Origin: Actinomycetes bacterium
GTDB taxonomy: Bacteria > Actinomycetota > Aquicultoria > SURF-47 > JAUUWJ01
DNA length: 5,884 nt
Reading direction: 5' to 3'
Assembly (NCBI GenBank): GCA_030589175.1
Contig: JAUUWJ010000051.1
Location: forward strand, 1 to 5,884
How positions within the stretch are numbered: position 1 is the first letter of the stretch; the number at the start of each line of letters is the position of its first letter. Shown one piece after another: positions 1,110 through 5,884 of this stretch. The notes beneath the pieces were generated by a model, which ran no database searches, had not been told where the DNA came from, and saw only the letters and a list, made by a program, of their open reading frames with translations. The translations under genes were made by a program, and so were the position numbers.

Positions 1110-1135
1110 GTTTAAGTAATAAGTGGTTAGGGTAA
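1110..1135 (+). promoter_or_regulatory. SigB-type promoter of the sigma/anti-sigma operon
   Basis: GTTTAA (1110-1115), a 14-nt spacer and GGGTAA (1130-1135) match the SigB-family consensus (GTTTAA, 12-15 nt, GGGTAT) at all six -35 positions and five of six -10 positions. Transcription would start near 1142, leaving an untranslated leader of roughly 100 nt before the ATG at 1240. Its place just upstream of a SigB/SigF-type sigma operon suggests positive autoregulation, as known for B. subtilis sigB. Use by this particular sigma factor is inferred. Confidence 0.72.
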
Positions 1136-1239: not shown

Positions 1240-1623
1240 ATGAAAACGTCTACTTCAGCGAGTGTAGATTTGGCTTTGCCTTTAAGAAAAGAGTATGCAC
1301 AGGTTTTACGGCTGGCTGTTGCCGGAATAGCCAGCCGTCTCGACTTTAATTGGGAACAAATAGAAGATATAAAACTTGCTTCTGAAGAAGCATTTCTTTT
1401 GGTGATGCAAAAGAAAATGGATAAAAACATCCATTTTAATTTCTTGCTTAGGCCCGACAGAATTGCCGTTAATGTCGTTAATGCTCATCTTGGCTCATTC
1501 AACATGCAAAGTTATGAGCAAAAATACAGTTTCTTTATTTTGACCGGCTTGATGGACAAAGTTGACGTCGTTCCCCGAAACGAAAGTTACTTTGACCTGA
1601 AATTTGTTAAGAAGCTTTATTGA
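1240..1623 (+). CDS. Degenerate RsbW-like anti-sigma protein, ATP site lost
   Basis: This 127-residue protein has the length and layout of RsbW/SpoIIAB-type GHKL (HATPase) anti-sigma factors. The N-box helix reads DIKLASEEAFLLVM at 43-56, and the G2-region helix ends in the family-typical LMDKVDV. Aligned by eye with the canonical kinase at 3582, it keeps the N-box Glu (Glu50) but has Leu54 where the Mg-binding Asn should be. The G1 motif DxG is replaced by Asn81-Ala-His83, and the G2 glycines are absent. It is unlikely to bind ATP or phosphorylate a STAS protein. It could still bind the sigma factor encoded 1 bp downstream, or act as a decoy or scaffold. The start is the only well-placed ATG, with a weak AGGG-type ribosome binding site at about 1229-1235. 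The gene is the first in the operon behind the SigB-type promoter. Confidence 0.72.
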   Translation: MKTSTSASVDLALPLRKEYAQVLRLAVAGIASRLDFNWEQIEDIKLASEEAFLLVMQKKMDKNIHFNFLLRPDRIAVNVVNAHLGSFNMQSYEQKYSFFILTGLMDKVDVVPRNESYFDLKFVKKLY

Positions 1624-1624
1624 T

Positions 1625-2404
1625 ATGGCCAATATAAATGTTCCTGATAAAAAATTAGTATTTGAACTTTTTAAAAAGTACAAAGGAACAAATGACATAC
1701 AAATAAGAGATAGATTGGTCAAGCTTCACTTATATTTAGTTGAATTCCTGGCAAGAAGATTTAGAAACAGGGGCGAATCACTGGAGGACTTAGTGCAAGT
1801 CGGAACAATAGGCTTAATAAAGGCAATTGACCGTTTTGATTTAGGCCGCAAGGTTGAATTTACAACGTACGCAACTCCGACAATTGTGGGTACTTTGAAA
1901 AGACATTTTAGGGATCAAAAGTGGGCCATAAGAGTTCCGCGCCGCTTACAAGAGCTAAATTTACAGGTTAATGATGCTGTTTCAAGGCTTACGCAAAGCT
2001 TAAAGAGAGCGCCGTCCATAGCTGAAATAGCTGATGAAGTAAAAGCAAGCGAAGAAGAAATTCTTGAAGCAATGGATACGAGTAAAGCATATACGCTTAT
2101 TTCACTTGACAGTGAACGCTCTGATGAAAATGATGAGGATTTTACTTTACTAGATTTTATTGGGCAGGAAGATAAGCAACTTACCAACTTAAACGAATTA
2201 GCATCGCTTACCAATGCCGTAAAAGGTTTGGCCGGTCAAGAGAAAAAACTTCTTTATCTGCGTTTTATAAAGGGGCTTACCCAAACTGAAATAGCAGAAA
2301 TATTAGGTATTTCTCAGATGCATGTATCAAGGTTGTTAAGGAAAACATTAAATAGCATGAGAAAAAAAATGATAGAAGAAGAAAGGATAGATGAGCAAAA
2401 ATAA
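1625..2404 (+). CDS. SigB/SigF/SigG-family RNA polymerase sigma factor
   Basis: This 259-residue sigma-70 factor lacks region 1.1, as expected for the stress and sporulation group. Region 2 covers residues about 30-105, with EDLVQVGTIGLIKAIDRFD, then FTTYATPTIVGTLKRHFRD and the IRVPRR segment characteristic of SigB/SigF/SigG. Region 3 covers about 110-185. Region 4 covers about 205-250, with the -35-reading helix-turn-helix TQTEIAEILGISQMHVSRLL. It should direct core polymerase to promoters of the GTTT/GGGTA type found at 786-811 and 1110-1135. The ATG at 1625 lies 1 bp after the stop of the degenerate anti-sigma gene, so translation is probably coupled. An in-frame TTG at 1604 would add seven residues and is less likely. 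The following run of STAS and RsbW-like genes implies control by partner switching. In B. subtilis the sigma gene follows rsbV and rsbW, whereas here it precedes them. Confidence 0.93.
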   Translation: MANINVPDKKLVFELFKKYKGTNDIQIRDRLVKLHLYLVEFLARRFRNRGESLEDLVQVGTIGLIKAIDRFDLGRKVEFTTYATPTIVGTLKRHFRDQKWAIRVPRRLQELNLQVNDAVSRLTQSLKRAPSIAEIADEVKASEEEILEAMDTSKAYTLISLDSERSDENDEDFTLLDFIGQEDKQLTNLNELASLTNAVKGLAGQEKKLLYLRFIKGLTQTEIAEILGISQMHVSRLLRKTLNSMRKKMIEEERIDEQK

Positions 2405-2444
2405 AGTTTTGTTTTTGCATAAATGCTAAATAAATTTTGTAGAA

Positions 2445-2450
2445 GGGAGG
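2445..2450 (+). promoter_or_regulatory. Ribosome binding site that sets the first STAS gene start
   Basis: GGGAGG lies 5 nt before the ATG at 2456. It falls inside the longer reading frame that would start at an ATG at 2423, which has no ribosome binding site, so the shorter start is preferred. Confidence 0.8.
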
Positions 2451-2455
2451 TTTAT

Positions 2456-2791
2456 ATGGCAGATATTAATATTGGCAAGAAAGAAAAAAATAATACGCCG
2501 GTGCTCGAAGTCCAAGGGGAGGTGGATATCTACACAGCTCCAAAGCTGAAAAAGGAGATATTGTCTTTAATAGATGATGGGAAGTATACAATGATAATTG
2601 ACTTAGCTAATGTTGATTTTATGGATAGCTCTGGCCTAGGTGTTTTGGTTAGCGGTTTAAAAAGAGTATCACCCCATGATGGTAAAATTTATTTAATAGC
2701 TAATCGCCCGAACATAATAAAGATATTTAATATTACGGGTTTGGACAAGGTTTTTGAGATCTATGCAAACATTGAAGAAATCGCAAATTGA
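2456..2791 (+). CDS. STAS-domain anti-sigma factor antagonist (RsbV/SpoIIAA-like), copy 1
   Basis: This 111-residue protein is one STAS domain of normal length. It has GEVDIYTAPKL near residues 21-31, then IIDLANVDFMDSSGLGVLV at 47-65, then the C-terminal NITGLDKVFEI helix. Ser58 in the MDSSG motif aligns with the serine phosphorylated in SpoIIAA (Ser58) and RsbV (Ser56). When unphosphorylated, such proteins bind the anti-sigma kinase and free the sigma factor. Phosphorylation by the kinase cancels this. The strong GGGAGG ribosome binding site favours the ATG at 2456. The gene begins 51 bp after the sigma gene, and its end overlaps the next gene by 29 bp. That neighbour looks unable to phosphorylate it, so its kinase is more likely the one at 3582. 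This is an inference from motifs. Confidence 0.9.
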   Translation: MADINIGKKEKNNTPVLEVQGEVDIYTAPKLKKEILSLIDDGKYTMIIDLANVDFMDSSGLGVLVSGLKRVSPHDGKIYLIANRPNIIKIFNITGLDKVFEIYANIEEIAN

Positions 2792-3161
2792 GAAGCAAAT
2801 TATCAGCCTAAAGATACCGGCCGAAGTAAGTTTTTTAAGGGCAGTTAGGCTTTTGATAACTGCTCAATTAAGGCTGCGCTCTGCCGATGAAGTTGATCTC
2901 GATGACTTAAAGTTAGCTATCAGCGAGTTTTTAGCAAGAGCTTTTGAAGCAGAGATTGTTGGTGAATATATAAAGATCGATATCTCGATTGAGAAGAATC
3001 TGGTTGATATTGAAATTGGCGATTTTGAAGAGTTTGATCCAAAAAAATTGTTTGCTTCTCCTTACTTAAACTTTGAAGCGATAGATACGCTGGTGAATAA
3101 TTTTGAAATTGAAGCATTAGAAGGTAGCCTTGTTAAAGTTAAGATAAAAAAATCTTTTTAG
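2763..3161 (+). CDS. Second degenerate RsbW-like protein, ATP site lost
   Basis: This protein of about 132 residues has a GHKL/RsbW-like layout. The N-terminal strand is ISLKIPAEVSFLRAVR, the N-box helix is DDLKLAISEFLARAFEAE at about 47-64, and a C-terminal strand region follows. The N-box Glu (Glu55) is kept, but Arg59 sits where the Mg-binding Asn should be. The G1 DxG is replaced by the Gly-Asp-Phe of IEIGDF, and no G2 Gly-x-Gly is present. The fold is probably kept but kinase activity is unlikely. The start overlaps the first STAS gene by 29 bp, which suggests translational coupling. No good ribosome binding site is visible, and in-frame TTG codons at 2754 and 2772 are alternatives. Because it follows a STAS gene, it occupies the position of an RsbW. 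It may bind the STAS protein or the sigma factor without phosphorylating anything. Confidence 0.68.
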   Translation: MQTLKKSQIEKQIISLKIPAEVSFLRAVRLLITAQLRLRSADEVDLDDLKLAISEFLARAFEAEIVGEYIKIDISIEKNLVDIEIGDFEEFDPKKLFASPYLNFEAIDTLVNNFEIEALEGSLVKVKIKKSF

Positions 3162-3202
3162 CAGAGGGCATCATTATTATGTTATATCTTGAATTAAATA
3201 AC

Positions 3203-3210
3203 TGGAGGGG
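3203..3210 (+). promoter_or_regulatory. Ribosome binding site of the second STAS gene
   Basis: TGGAGGGG (GGAGG at 3204-3208) ends 2-4 nt before the ATG at 3213. It is a strong purine-rich site and supports this start and independent initiation of the second STAS gene. Confidence 0.7.
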
Positions 3211-3212
3211 TC

Positions 3213-3548
3213 ATGGAAGTTAACGATTATGAAGATTTATCTATTATTAGGGCGGAAGGTGAGATAGATCATTGGCGAGCTACAGAGCTAGAACAAAAAA
3301 TTGATGACGCAATAAGAGGAAGCGAAAACGATGTAATTGTAGACTTTTCCGATCTGACTTACATAGATAGCGGCGGTATATCGGTTTTATTTGTTCAATT
3401 AAAAAAACTCATTGAAAAAGAGAGAAGAATGATTGTGGTGACAGAGAATAAAAATATTATCAAGATCCTCAGACTAGTAAACATCATTAACCAAAAAAAC
3501 TTTGAACTAAAACCAAATTTAGAACAAGCAAAGCGCATAATTAACTAA
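3213..3548 (+). CDS. STAS-domain anti-sigma factor antagonist, copy 2
   Basis: This 111-residue single-STAS protein has the GEIDHWRATEL strand-loop near residues 16-26 and VIVDFSDLTYIDSGGISVL near 41-59. Ser53 is the residue after Asp in the DSGG motif and aligns with the phospho-acceptor serine of SpoIIAA and RsbV. The neighbouring residue is Gly rather than the usual Ser/Thr, and the G-L-G that usually follows is G-I-S, so it differs clearly from the first STAS copy. The C-terminal helix (NIIKILRLVNIIN) is less like the typical ITGL form. It should be the antagonist paired with the kinase gene 33 bp downstream. The two STAS copies are diverged, so this is not a recent duplication. Confidence 0.88.
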   Translation: MEVNDYEDLSIIRAEGEIDHWRATELEQKIDDAIRGSENDVIVDFSDLTYIDSGGISVLFVQLKKLIEKERRMIVVTENKNIIKILRLVNIINQKNFELKPNLEQAKRIIN

Positions 3549-3581
3549 TTAATTTGTAAGGCCTACTGCAATCTCAAATAA

Positions 3582-3980
3582 ATGGAAAAAGAAAAGAAAA
3601 GCATAACTATTAAAAGCGATCCAAAGAATATTTCAAAAGCGAGACGTTTTGTTGAAATTATTGCCAAACAATATGGTTTCAACGACAGCCAAATATTTGA
3701 TATTAAGGTAGCTTCGGGTGAAGCTATCAGTAATGCTATCGAGCATGGTTCTCCTTTAGGCGCGAAAAGCAATATTACGGTAGAGGCTGATTTCTCTAAA
3801 AATTGTTTGGAGCTAAAAGTAATCGATAGGGGAATTTTCAAAAAGCAAGTGAAAGTTGACAATCCGGACCCTCGTCATCGTGGTAGAGGCATTCCCTTTA
3901 TGCTAGCATTGATGGACACGGTTACCATCAAAGAAGGCAAAAAAGGAACTACGGTAAAATTGATTAAAAAGCTTAAATAG
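3582..3980 (+). CDS. RsbW/SpoIIAB-like anti-sigma factor serine kinase (intact ATP site)
   Basis: This 132-residue GHKL-family protein would bind its sigma factor in the cytoplasm and phosphorylate STAS antagonists using ATP. All key motifs are present: N-box DIKVASGEAISNAIEHG with Glu47 and Asn51, G1 box VIDRG with Asp82 and Gly84, and G2 box RGRGI (Gly101, Gly103) followed by LALMDTVTI. It is the only one of the three RsbW-like proteins here that keeps these residues, so it is the likely kinase for both STAS proteins. An in-frame stop directly precedes the ATG, which fixes 3582 as the earliest possible start. No Shine-Dalgarno sequence lies at normal spacing, so it may be weakly translated or depend on upstream translation. 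It is the last gene of the stress module. No clear terminator separates it from the Nif3-like gene. Confidence 0.9.
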   Translation: MEKEKKSITIKSDPKNISKARRFVEIIAKQYGFNDSQIFDIKVASGEAISNAIEHGSPLGAKSNITVEADFSKNCLELKVIDRGIFKKQVKVDNPDPRHRGRGIPFMLALMDTVTIKEGKKGTTVKLIKKLK

Positions 3981-4010
3981 ATTGAAGTATTTACTGTAAG
4001 TTAGCTGATA

Positions 4011-4016
4011 GAGGAG
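4011..4016 (+). promoter_or_regulatory. Ribosome binding site supporting the TTG start of the Nif3-like gene
   Basis: GAGGAG lies 5 nt before TTG at 4022. A GTG at 4018 is out of frame, and no in-frame ATG lies at a suitable distance, so this site decides for the TTG. Confidence 0.75.
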
Positions 4017-4021
4017 AGTGC

Positions 4022-5131
4022 TTGCCGACCCTAGAAGAATTACTTCCGATTTTTTCAGAGTTTGCCCCACAAAGCTTAGCGGAACCTTGGGATAACGTGG
4101 GTTTGCAGCTAGGGGATAAGCGATCAAAAATCAATCGTATGCTTCTAAGTTTAAATGCAACTCAGGAAACGATTGAAGAAGCTATTCAAAAAAAATGCGA
4201 GCTCTTATTTACACATCATCCGCTCTTTTTTGAAGATATAAACAGCATTGTTAATACGTCAGCATTATTTGATGTTATAAAAGATGCGCTTGCGAAGAAT
4301 ATTGGCATCTATTCTGCTCATACAAATCTGGATAAGTCAGAGCAAGGTATCAACAAGGTTCTAGCTGATTATCTTGAACTTAAGAAAATAGAACCATTAA
4401 TTGCCGATACGGATTTTAAGAAACTTGTTTTTTTTGTAGAGACAAAGTACTCAAAAAAGATAATTGAAGAATTAGCGCTTTTGGGTGCCGGCAAAATTGG
4501 CCAATATTCGAACGCTAGTTTTAGGTCAAAAGGAGTTGGAACATTTAAGCCTGAAGCCGGAGCGAAGCCGGCTGTTGGAGAAAAAGGTGTTGTTAATGAA
4601 GTAGGTGAAGAGCGAGTTGAGATGCTTGTTCATCAGAGCATACTTGTAAATGTTGTGAAGAAACTAATTGAAACTCATCCTTATGAAGAGGTAGCATACG
4701 ATATTTATCCGATTGAAGGCATCAAAAAAAGCAATGTTGGGCTAGGGAGAATTGGCGATTTTTCTTCGCAAAAGCGCATTTGTGACATCATTGCTGATTT
4801 AAGACAAAATGTAGATGGCCAAATTAGTGTTTTAGGAAATCCAGAAAAGAAGGTTAGAAGAGCAGCTATTTTAGCCGGTGCAGGAGCATCTTATATAGAG
4901 CAAACCGGGGCAAAAGGAGCCGAGCTTTTTATTACTTCTGATGTTAAATATCACGAAGCCCAAAAAGCGGCTGAAATTGGCTTAAATTTAATAATTCTTT
5001 CTCACTTTGCGATTGAGAAATTTGCTTTGAATCTGCTGGCTCCGTTGCTTGCTGATAAGTTAAACAAATCGGGTTATAGTGTTGATGTGATAATTTCAGA
5101 AAAGGAAAGTGATGTTTGGTTTGAAAACTGA
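4022..5131 (+). CDS. Nif3-like dinuclear metal-centre protein (DUF34, YqfO type)
   Basis: This 369-residue protein belongs to the widespread Nif3 family, often annotated as GTP cyclohydrolase 1 type 2 although its reaction is not firmly known. Family members form hexameric toroids with two metals per subunit. The metal ligands are visible: TH65H66P, then the HTNLD motif with His100 and Asp104, and near the C-terminus His328 and Glu332 in SHFAIEKF (usually GHxxTE). The N-terminal motif PWDNVGLQLGD and ITSDVKYHEAQ at about 306-316 are also typical. Residues about 131-230 form the extra central domain found in YqfO-type proteins, ending in THPYEEVAYDIYP. The length fits this longer subgroup. Translation starts at TTG with a good GAGGAG site. 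The 3' end overlaps the zinc-ribbon gene by 20 bp. Confidence 0.92.
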   Translation: MPTLEELLPIFSEFAPQSLAEPWDNVGLQLGDKRSKINRMLLSLNATQETIEEAIQKKCELLFTHHPLFFEDINSIVNTSALFDVIKDALAKNIGIYSAHTNLDKSEQGINKVLADYLELKKIEPLIADTDFKKLVFFVETKYSKKIIEELALLGAGKIGQYSNASFRSKGVGTFKPEAGAKPAVGEKGVVNEVGEERVEMLVHQSILVNVVKKLIETHPYEEVAYDIYPIEGIKKSNVGLGRIGDFSSQKRICDIIADLRQNVDGQISVLGNPEKKVRRAAILAGAGASYIEQTGAKGAELFITSDVKYHEAQKAAEIGLNLIILSHFAIEKFALNLLAPLLADKLNKSGYSVDVIISEKESDVWFEN

Positions 5132-5840
5132 CCTGATAAGTTTGTTGGAACTCCAAGACATAGATAGTGCGATTCAAACTGCTCAAAAAGAGTTAGAAGC
5201 AATGGTCGAGAAGAAAACTTATGAAAAACTTCAGACGGAGCTTAAAGATCTTGCTAGTAAAGAAAGGGCGATGAAAGAAAAGTTGAAAGCACAGAATCTT
5301 GTTCAAGATAAGAAAAACGGTGAACTGGAAATGCTTAGTCAGAAGATAGCCAAAGAAGAAAAGAAACTATTTGGAGGAACCGGTTCGAATCCGAAGGAAT
5401 TAGCAGCCCTACAGCAGGAAATAAAGCACTTAAATCAAAATCGTGATTTATTAGAAACTGAAGTTTTAGAAAATATGGAAATATTATCTTCTTTAGAAGA
5501 GAAAATGAGTAGTTTGAAAGAGCGGATTAGGGAAAGGGAAAATGAAGCGAGTGAAGCCGAAAGCAGCGTTTTAGAAAAAGAAACTCAGCTAAAAGGACAG
5601 CTGGGAAAATTGGCAAATGATCGTGAGCTAAAGACCAAAGATATAGATAATGAGCTGTTAGAAGAATATGACGAAATACGTGAAAGAAAAGGAGGTCTTG
5701 GCGTAGCCGCTTTGATAGATGGTATTTGCCAAGCTTGCCATGTTAAAGTACCGGCAACAGATTTAGACAAAATTATTAATAAAGATGAAGCCTATGATTA
5801 TTGTGCAACTTGTTCGAGAATTATAATTTTAAAAGAATAA
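5112..5840 (+). CDS. Coiled-coil C4 zinc-ribbon protein (DUF164/CT398-like)
   Basis: This 242-residue protein has two parts. Residues about 12-180 are heptad-rich and highly charged, forming a long helical hairpin coiled coil broken near residues 92-100 by a Gly/Asn-Pro turn (GGTGSNPKE). Residues 204-242 form a zinc ribbon with CQAC (Cys206, Cys209) and CATC (Cys231, Cys234). The family has no agreed molecular role; the fold suggests nucleic-acid or protein binding. The ATG at 5112 overlaps the Nif3-like gene by 20 bp, with AGGAA at 5103-5107. The GTG at 5109 and TTG at 5121 are alternatives. Its stop shares one base with the RNase HI start. The order Nif3, zinc ribbon, RNase H is familiar from actinobacteria such as Mycobacterium. 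Confidence 0.9.
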   Translation: MFGLKTDLISLLELQDIDSAIQTAQKELEAMVEKKTYEKLQTELKDLASKERAMKEKLKAQNLVQDKKNGELEMLSQKIAKEEKKLFGGTGSNPKELAALQQEIKHLNQNRDLLETEVLENMEILSSLEEKMSSLKERIRERENEASEAESSVLEKETQLKGQLGKLANDRELKTKDIDNELLEEYDEIRERKGGLGVAALIDGICQACHVKVPATDLDKIINKDEAYDYCATCSRIIILKE

Positions 5841-5884
5841 TGTTTTACTTATTTGTCGATGGAGCTGCAAGAGGGAATCCAGGT
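5840..5884 (+). CDS. rnhA: RNase HI, N-terminus only (cut by the window end)
   Basis: Fifteen codons are visible, reading MFYLFVDGAARGNPG. The DGAARGNPG stretch is the first catalytic-Asp strand and turn of RNase HI-type enzymes, with Asp7 as the first metal-binding acid. RNase HI cuts the RNA strand of RNA-DNA hybrids. The ATG shares its A with the TAA stop of the zinc-ribbon gene, indicating translational coupling. The remaining catalytic residues lie outside the window, so intactness and any fusion to a phosphatase domain, as in Mycobacterium Rv2228c, cannot be judged. Confidence 0.85.
   Translation, partial: MFYLFVDGAARGNPG

Follow-up and report, generated by a model that had tools for sequence, protein, structure and literature searches.

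How is a single sigma factor governed when its own gene cluster carries two antagonists of the STAS type and three RsbW-like proteins? This question is raised by six co-directional open reading frames (ORFs) at 1240-3980 of a stretch of actinomycete DNA, hereafter the window, which is a whole contig of 5884 bases (JAUUWJ010000051.1; G000:C271 in our numbering) from a bin of 1.18 Mb in 276 contigs, 71% complete. ORFs and profile matches agree on the order RsbW-like, sigma, STAS, RsbW-like, STAS, RsbW-like that a first-pass annotation had read from the letters, and we call the genes, in this order, ND1, SIG, STAS1, ND2, STAS2 and KIN (Table 1). In our view the six genes probably make up a complete partner-switching circuit, with the two functions of RsbW divided among separate proteins. 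The first-pass annotation knew of no described system with this composition; it is in fact already known, since the SigF network of Mycobacterium smegmatis has the parts list (PMC7693655), and the component types recur over the phylum. What is new is the merging of three units or dyads into a single cluster, a layout not found elsewhere in the searches made.

Motif states and families of the six proteins

Kinase competence was judged in one alignment of 82 RsbW-like proteins, comprising sigma-neighbour (A), STAS1-partner (B) and kinase-type (C) classes and five reference rows (four RsbW proteins retrieved by protein search, plus another HATPase protein encoded in the own genome). In the column of the N-box Asn, KIN has N51, ND1 a Leu and ND2 an Arg. 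Similarly, the G1 Asp-x-Gly and G2 Gly-x-Gly motifs are whole in KIN and broken in ND1 and ND2, a single aligned G1 Asp being left in ND2. KIN, with E47, N51, D82, G84, G101 and G103 and hence N, G1 and G2 all intact, is by its motifs the one kinase-competent protein of the three, as had been proposed at first pass. The N-box Glu is kept in every row of the alignment, those of ND1, ND2 and KIN included. By class, the Asn was found in 20/20 C rows, in all five reference rows, in 11 of the 16 B rows (the other five have Ser) and in one of 38 A rows; this sole A row (L051) falls, together with L052, outside the A clade described below. The proteins with Ser at this place (L198, L199, L203, L194 and L197) are intermediate between kinase-like relatives and ND2. 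From such comparisons, the partner of a BldG-like STAS protein seems to lose its ATP site repeatedly.

Arg20 of SpoIIAB is a contact for both of its partners. The aligned Arg is present in ND1 (R24), ND2 (R29) and KIN (R21) and also in the 79 other rows, whatever their class (A 38/38, B 16/16, C 20/20, reference 5/5). Because this Arg20 equivalent is retained, the pseudokinases ND1 and ND2 keep part of the partner surface, and judged by these residues they have likely lost catalysis and kept partner binding.

SIG scored 285.9 bits with the SigB/SigF/SigG model TIGR02980 (cut-off 234.35), has Pfam sigma regions 2, 3 and 4 all present, and counts 8x6g_H and the SpoIIAB-bound sigma factor 1l0o_C among its PDB matches. 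Its neighbour ND1 scored 19.1 bits with HATPase_c_2, under the cut-off of 27.4, and reached E 1.7e-15 with the NCBIfam RsbW model, yet under that model's cut-off. The AlphaFold2 model of ND1 has a mean predicted local distance difference test score (pLDDT) of 89.6, and the best PDB matches for the ND1 and ND2 models are RsbW, UsfX and SpoIIAB. In the tree of RsbW-like proteins, which like the STAS tree is a quick tree with long rows, ND1 lies within the A clade (37 rows, support 95), formed by RsbW-like proteins upstream of sigma genes; besides the class relatives it takes in Coriobacteriia, Kribbella and Nocardioides. None of the 36 members of this clade that were compared with ND1 has the N-box Asn. 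In the database, 16 proteins match ND1, two near-identical and 14 at 45-72% identity; their N-box position holds Leu in 15 and Gln in one, and Arg24 is present in 16/16. The conservation over these 16 proteins rules out ND1 as a decaying pseudogene.

As a member of a kinase-less anti-sigma clade, ND1 is most likely, on sequence grounds, the anti-sigma factor itself and not a spare copy, and the first-pass picture of the dead copies as equivalent titrators thus no longer fits. Like a UsfX/RsbW1-type protein, it has a predicted RsbW fold, adjoins a sigma gene and lacks the N-box Asn. Since this Asn is missing throughout the anti-sigma clade, from the own class to Coriobacteriia and on to Kribbella and Nocardioides, the division of labour known from mycobacteria, with a kinase-less anti-sigma factor and a kinase of its own, is suggested to be old in Actinomycetota; the kinase-less ND1 type itself is, by this distribution, ancient. 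Degenerate RsbW copies are accordingly not simply dead weight, the degenerate copy of the ND1 clade being most likely the anti-sigma factor. We also observed in ND1 relatives a strongly conserved block around YSFFIxTxLxDxV, near the expected place of the G2 ATP lid, which is perhaps a partner surface.

Both antagonists exceed the PF01740 cut-off of 22.6 bits (STAS1 83.2, STAS2 57.0), and STAS1 in addition matches TIGR00377 (100.6 bits) and, in the PDB, RsbV (4.1e-15) and RsfB (5.5e-10). The acceptor Ser that the first-pass annotation saw in both was confirmed, Asp-Ser being present in 34/34 rows of the STAS alignment, STAS1 and STAS2 included. In the STAS tree, STAS2 groups with STAS proteins adjoining KIN-type kinases (support 97) and STAS1 is nearest to B-type STAS proteins. 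KIN scored 81.4 bits with HATPase_c_2 (cut-off as above) and falls inside the C clade of kinase types (Shimodaira-Hasegawa-like approximate likelihood ratio test, 90).

The third RsbW-like protein, ND2, scored 24.0 bits with HATPase_c_2, again under 27.4, and 1.5e-5 with the NCBIfam RsbW model, under that model's cut-off; its AlphaFold2 model (mean pLDDT 86.2) has the RsbW/SpoIIAB fold. A single-sequence search, by a method that reaches relatives sharing exact 5-residue words, returned ND2 alone. With a profile of ND2 and 13 B-type partners 1151 proteins were obtained, the best 120 of which are B-type and general RsbW by name and length, one of them from 'Candidatus Aquicultor sp.'. By tree path the B types are nearest to ND2, whose own branch, however, measures 3.8 changes per site. 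ND2 may be a decaying pseudogene, although it has an open reading frame and is predicted to keep the fold. By these comparisons the extreme divergence of ND2 is a new point of this cluster.

Table 1. Genes of the cluster and candidate promoter, with positions in the window
Feature	Position	Strand	Description
Promoter	1110-1135	+	GTTTAA-N14-GGGTAA; candidate SigB/SigF-type promoter, 104 nt upstream of ND1
ND1	1240-1623	+	RsbW/UsfX-like, lacking the N-box Asn and the G boxes; predicted to be a dedicated anti-sigma factor and no kinase
SIG	1625-2404	+	SigB/SigF/SigG-family sigma factor, 259 aa
STAS1	2456-2791	+	Anti-sigma factor antagonist, acceptor Ser (FMDSSGLG)
ND2	2763-3161	+	Strongly diverged RsbW-like protein, 132 aa, without N-box Asn and intact G boxes; predicted STAS1-coupled modulator
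STAS2	3213-3548	+	Second anti-sigma factor antagonist, acceptor Ser (YIDSGGIS)
KIN	3582-3980	+	RsbW-like, N, G1 and G2 motifs intact; predicted Ser kinase of STAS proteins

Arrangement of the parts in relatives

The set of relatives comprised 59 other genomes; 35 share the class of the window and 24 its phylum, and no closer genome was among them. Matches were accepted at E 1e-90 or better for a SIG ortholog, 1e-3 for the ND1 type, 1e-30 for the STAS1 type and 1e-13 for the KIN type. A SIG ortholog was found in 18 of the 35 class genomes, belonging to five of 12 families; in three others (G003, G015, G020) the sigma factor is a distant one only (E about 1e-45), and ND1, STAS1 and KIN matches that reach these thresholds are absent. 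The other parts accompany SIG: the ND1 type occurs in 18/18 genomes with SIG and 0/17 without (Fisher 2e-10), the STAS1 type in 15/18 and 1/17 (4e-6) and the KIN type in 17/18 and 1/17 (7e-8), these three values being uncorrected for kinship.

The six-gene order, for which a search in other genomes had been proposed at first pass, is not conserved. SIG and the STAS1 type share a contig in 0/15 genomes, and in the 18 SIG-bearing class relatives none of the listed KIN matches is on the same contig as the sigma gene. Because many of these genomes are fragmented, separate contigs alone prove little and fetched flanks are better evidence. In 19 stretches around ND1 matches (18 of the same class, one of the same phylum; L116-L134), the ND1 type is directly upstream of the sigma gene in 19/19, and no STAS or second RsbW-like gene was detected in these loci, 18 of which show at least 2.5 kb past the sigma gene (the contig of L134 ends 48 nt after it). 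Around further ND1, ND2 and KIN matches, 16 of 20 stretches show a STAS1-type gene followed directly by an RsbW-like gene; the remaining four are three ND1-sigma pairs and one with two RsbW-like genes without STAS. A STAS gene was detected directly upstream of the kinase in 12 of 20 kinase loci. The window thus merges units that are kept apart in relatives, where the fetched loci show ND1-sigma, STAS1-RsbW-like and kinase units separately. In one relative (L209, G038:C125) two adjacent RsbW-like genes, one of them kinase-type, were observed at 3521-4438, with no STAS or sigma neighbour detected.

The same six-gene order was not found among the best 80 of at least 561 sigma matches in a collection of 84,980 species. 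With W for RsbW-like, V for STAS and S for sigma genes (genes on the plus strand within 6 kb, in flanks of up to 5 kb, recognised by our own profiles), the patterns in these 80 were WS in 56, S in 18, VWS in three, and SW, WSW and SWV in one each. No six-gene cluster was found in the literature searched, most subscription journals being outside its coverage; the papers on M. smegmatis came closest. A published description of the composition and a gene order conserved in no relative had been named at first pass as grounds against its proposal. Both apply to the present case, yet the cluster itself looks real.

A probable split-role circuit and its rivals

From gene content, motif states, the ND1 and KIN clades and the co-occurrence of the modules we infer a set of interactions and phosphorylations as follows. 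ND1, kinase-less by its motifs and similar to UsfX and RsbW1, would hold SIG inactive. An unphosphorylated STAS protein, most likely the BldG/RsbV-like STAS1, would bind ND1 and free SIG. KIN, similar to RsbW2, would act at the conserved Ser, phosphorylating STAS2 and probably also STAS1 and so keeping them off ND1, without itself binding SIG. Under stress, a PP2C coded elsewhere would dephosphorylate the STAS proteins, and freed SIG would transcribe its own cluster from the GTTTAA-N14-GGGTAA site. In the least certain step, ND2 would bind STAS1, in the manner proposed for ApgA and BldG, or pair with ND1 as RsbW3 does with RsbW1, and shift the threshold. With only six genes, the set is compact enough for a reconstruction of the full circuit in E. 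coli, where it could be measured together with the puzzling third RsbW-like protein.

A scan of 11 ORFs of the window, all on the strand of the cluster, showed no phosphatase or sensor gene, in line with the first-pass annotation, and the genome search for RsbU/PP2C genes that it had called for gave two SpoIIE/PP2C-type matches, both outside the window. The SpoIIE-type phosphatase on contig C254, the candidate for the proposed circuit, has a membrane-like segment and has lost its start at the contig end; the PP2C on C65 sits in what reads as a Ser/Thr-kinase and FHA-protein operon (neighbours named by reading).

The site upstream of ND1 fits the SigB consensus GTTTAA-N12-14-GGG(A/T)A(A/T) (PMC8346170). 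The looser pattern GTTT-N14-18-GGGTA has a single match in the window, a number reached or exceeded in 32 of 200 shuffles. In the own genome the strict pattern GTTTAA-N12-14-GGGWAW was found 8 times vs 2 for the reversed pattern. The loose pattern was found upstream of 0/20 kinase types of the relatives and upstream of 2/16 STAS1 types, with about 0.2 expected. Two of its 17 sites in the own genome precede a KGG stress-motif protein (C72:510-535, L231, strict consensus) and a DUF308 protein (C74, L232, looser), both plausible stress genes. Among the eight strict sites, one is before the KGG protein, one before a BON-like protein (own reading) and one before ND1, and two have no 60-aa ORF within 160 nt. 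These sites are too few to claim a SigB-type regulon in this genome; autoregulation of the cluster by SIG is possible on the evidence of the site. A site with one mismatch and the same spacing was also noticed at 786-811, before a YtxH-like gene; 26 of 200 shuffles have at least two such matches.

Several observations weigh against the proposed circuit. The case for the promoter is weak, as the loose pattern shows no excess in the own genome (17 vs 17 for the reversed pattern) and was found upstream of 0/28 ND1 types of the relatives. Eight of the 20 kinase loci, the four nearest to KIN included, have no detected STAS gene beside the kinase. ND1 may bind ATP, and earlier work on nucleotide binding by UsfX reportedly exists. 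RsfB of PDB 8ih8 is nearer to STAS1 (42.7 bits) than to STAS2 (21.4 bits), which leaves adjacency to the kinase as the one ground for equating STAS2 with RsfB. RsfA, the other M. smegmatis antagonist, is redox-controlled by two Cys, whereas neither STAS1 (read from ATG 2456) nor STAS2 contains any. ND2 is left unplaced by the tree, the approximately unbiased test giving p 0.72-0.77 whether it is grouped with B, with A or with C. It might even act on another sigma factor altogether, by analogy with ApgA, which is proposed as the anti-sigma factor of the extracytoplasmic function (ECF) factor sigma-E (PMC10771440).

A bolder extension of the split-role circuit makes the cluster a hard-wired titration switch: the three merged units would provide a pure anti-sigma factor (ND1), a pure kinase (KIN) serving two antagonists, and a fixed ND2:STAS1 ratio, set by the overlap of their genes (29 nt), which would define the stress threshold. 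We put this forward tentatively and regard it, taken as a whole, as rather unlikely.

In the classical RsbW logic, KIN would hold SIG as well as phosphorylate the STAS proteins, and ND1 and ND2 would be decoys or decaying paralogues titrating SIG or STAS, as the first-pass annotation had it for the dead copies. We regard this reading as improbable: ND1 is conserved, never has the N-box Asn, keeps Arg24 in 16/16 and has sigma directly downstream in 19/19 loci, while KIN matches, among those listed, are never on the sigma contig in 18 class relatives and the M. smegmatis kinase RsbW2 is described as not binding SigF (PMC7693655). In favour of the classical logic, KIN keeps all motifs of a bifunctional RsbW/SpoIIAB, ND2 is highly diverged and its single-sequence search returns itself alone, and the STAS1/ND2 overlap suits a stoichiometric decoy.

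We likewise give little credence to several circuits sharing the locus, with ND1-SIG-STAS1 as the sigma switch and STAS2-KIN acting on another target (sigma, cyclase or phosphatase) as a mere neighbour. In its favour, the three units are separate in relatives, and multiple kinase-type and STAS genes occur in class relatives; and since NIF3 follows KIN in the window and a KIN-type gene in a relative (L210, G028:C49), there one gene further on, the place of KIN may predate the merger. On the other hand, the modules co-occur over the class. The own genome, complete to 71%, has STAS matches nowhere but in this cluster, with its two, and only two of its HATPase_c_2 proteins are above the cut-off, KIN and one on C72, which makes KIN the prime candidate for the phosphorylation of STAS1.

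That unrelated fragments were joined in assembly is very improbable, even for a window that is the whole contig of a fragmented 276-contig bin and whose parts lie on separate contigs in relatives: in the database, an entry identical to ND1 and another identical to ND2 are each represented by two contigs, of which the longest measures 6532 bases in both cases, so that one longer contig probably bears both genes (an indirect argument; a contig of 13173 bases also carries ND1), GC content is even along the window (0.32-0.39), and the six genes are unbroken, with spacings of 1 to 51 nt or overlap.

Two start codons differ from the ORF list. SIG was taken to start at ATG 1625, one base past the ND1 stop (TTG 1604 in the list), and STAS1 at ATG 2456, with a ribosome-binding-site-like GGGAGG upstream (2423 in the list). 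A YtxH-like protein (43.8 bits) is encoded at 827-1087, just upstream of the cluster. Further upstream, a 91-aa ORF at 234-509 matches the LigD primase-polymerase domain (45.8 bits) after a Ku-like start (own reading), and the match seems to resume in another frame past 509, which looks like the remnant of a decayed non-homologous end joining gene. Downstream of KIN, 4022-5884 holds NIF3/DUF34 (242 bits), a CT398-like coiled coil with zinc ribbon and an apparent RNase HI start. Elsewhere in the genome, C72 bears a GGDEF-like protein (own reading) besides its HATPase_c_2 protein.

Comparison with known partner-switching systems

In the SigF network of M. smegmatis, RsbW1 is a binding partner of SigF that did not phosphorylate RsfB; RsbW2 carries N, G1 and G2 motifs and is the only kinase of RsfB, without binding SigF; with RsbW3, RsfB was not phosphorylated, and this protein binds RsbW1 and raises SigF output when overexpressed (PMC7693655). 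The STAS antagonists are RsfA and RsfB, and the three rsbW genes adjoin sigF, rsfB and rsfA, respectively, in three separate units (PMC7693655); the phosphatase is RsfR, with its histidine kinase RsfS (PMC10950880). Judged by gene content and motifs, the parts list is the same as in the window: one sigma factor, a kinase-less anti-sigma factor beside it (in M. smegmatis its gene shares an operon with sigF), one kinase, a third kinase-less RsbW and two STAS proteins. In contrast, these parts occupy three loci there and one cluster here. RsbW3 has 194 aa with a 30-residue N-terminal extension, whereas the 132 aa of ND2 include no extension, and RsfR is encoded near the rsfB-rsbW2 operon, whereas no phosphatase was found in the window.

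UsfX (PDB 8jzt with SigF, 8ih8 with RsfB), which we take to be the M. tuberculosis protein, also resembles ND1. Its N-box Asn is absent, the chain reading VDEVCTRLI, but sequence similarity to ND1 is weak (E 0.12). ND1 shares with UsfX its predicted fold and the place upstream of a SigF-type gene (for UsfX, PMC10950880).

The middle of the cluster resembles a Streptomyces dyad. A STAS protein of Streptomyces sp. SCUT-3 shares 50% identity with STAS1, and the RsbW-like protein that follows it there has an Arg where the N-box Asn would be (EACSR), as ND2 does. This dyad is presumably bldG-apgA (SCO3549, SCO3548). A STAS1-type gene followed by an RsbW-like gene was found in Streptomyces (L249), Nocardioidaceae (L252), Nocardioides (L253) and L157, and no RsbW-like gene was detected within the short loci of Kribbella (L250) and Anaerosomatales (L251). 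In Streptomyces apgA is co-transcribed with bldG (PMC10771440). The dyad stands apart from the sigma gene there, whereas here it lies between SIG and STAS2-KIN, and ND2 is far more diverged.

Finally, the rsbV-rsbW-sigB and spoIIAA-spoIIAB-sigF operons of Bacillus share with the cluster the same three protein families and the same switching logic. A single RsbW is anti-sigma factor and kinase in these operons, whereas the two roles are predicted to be split between separate proteins here.

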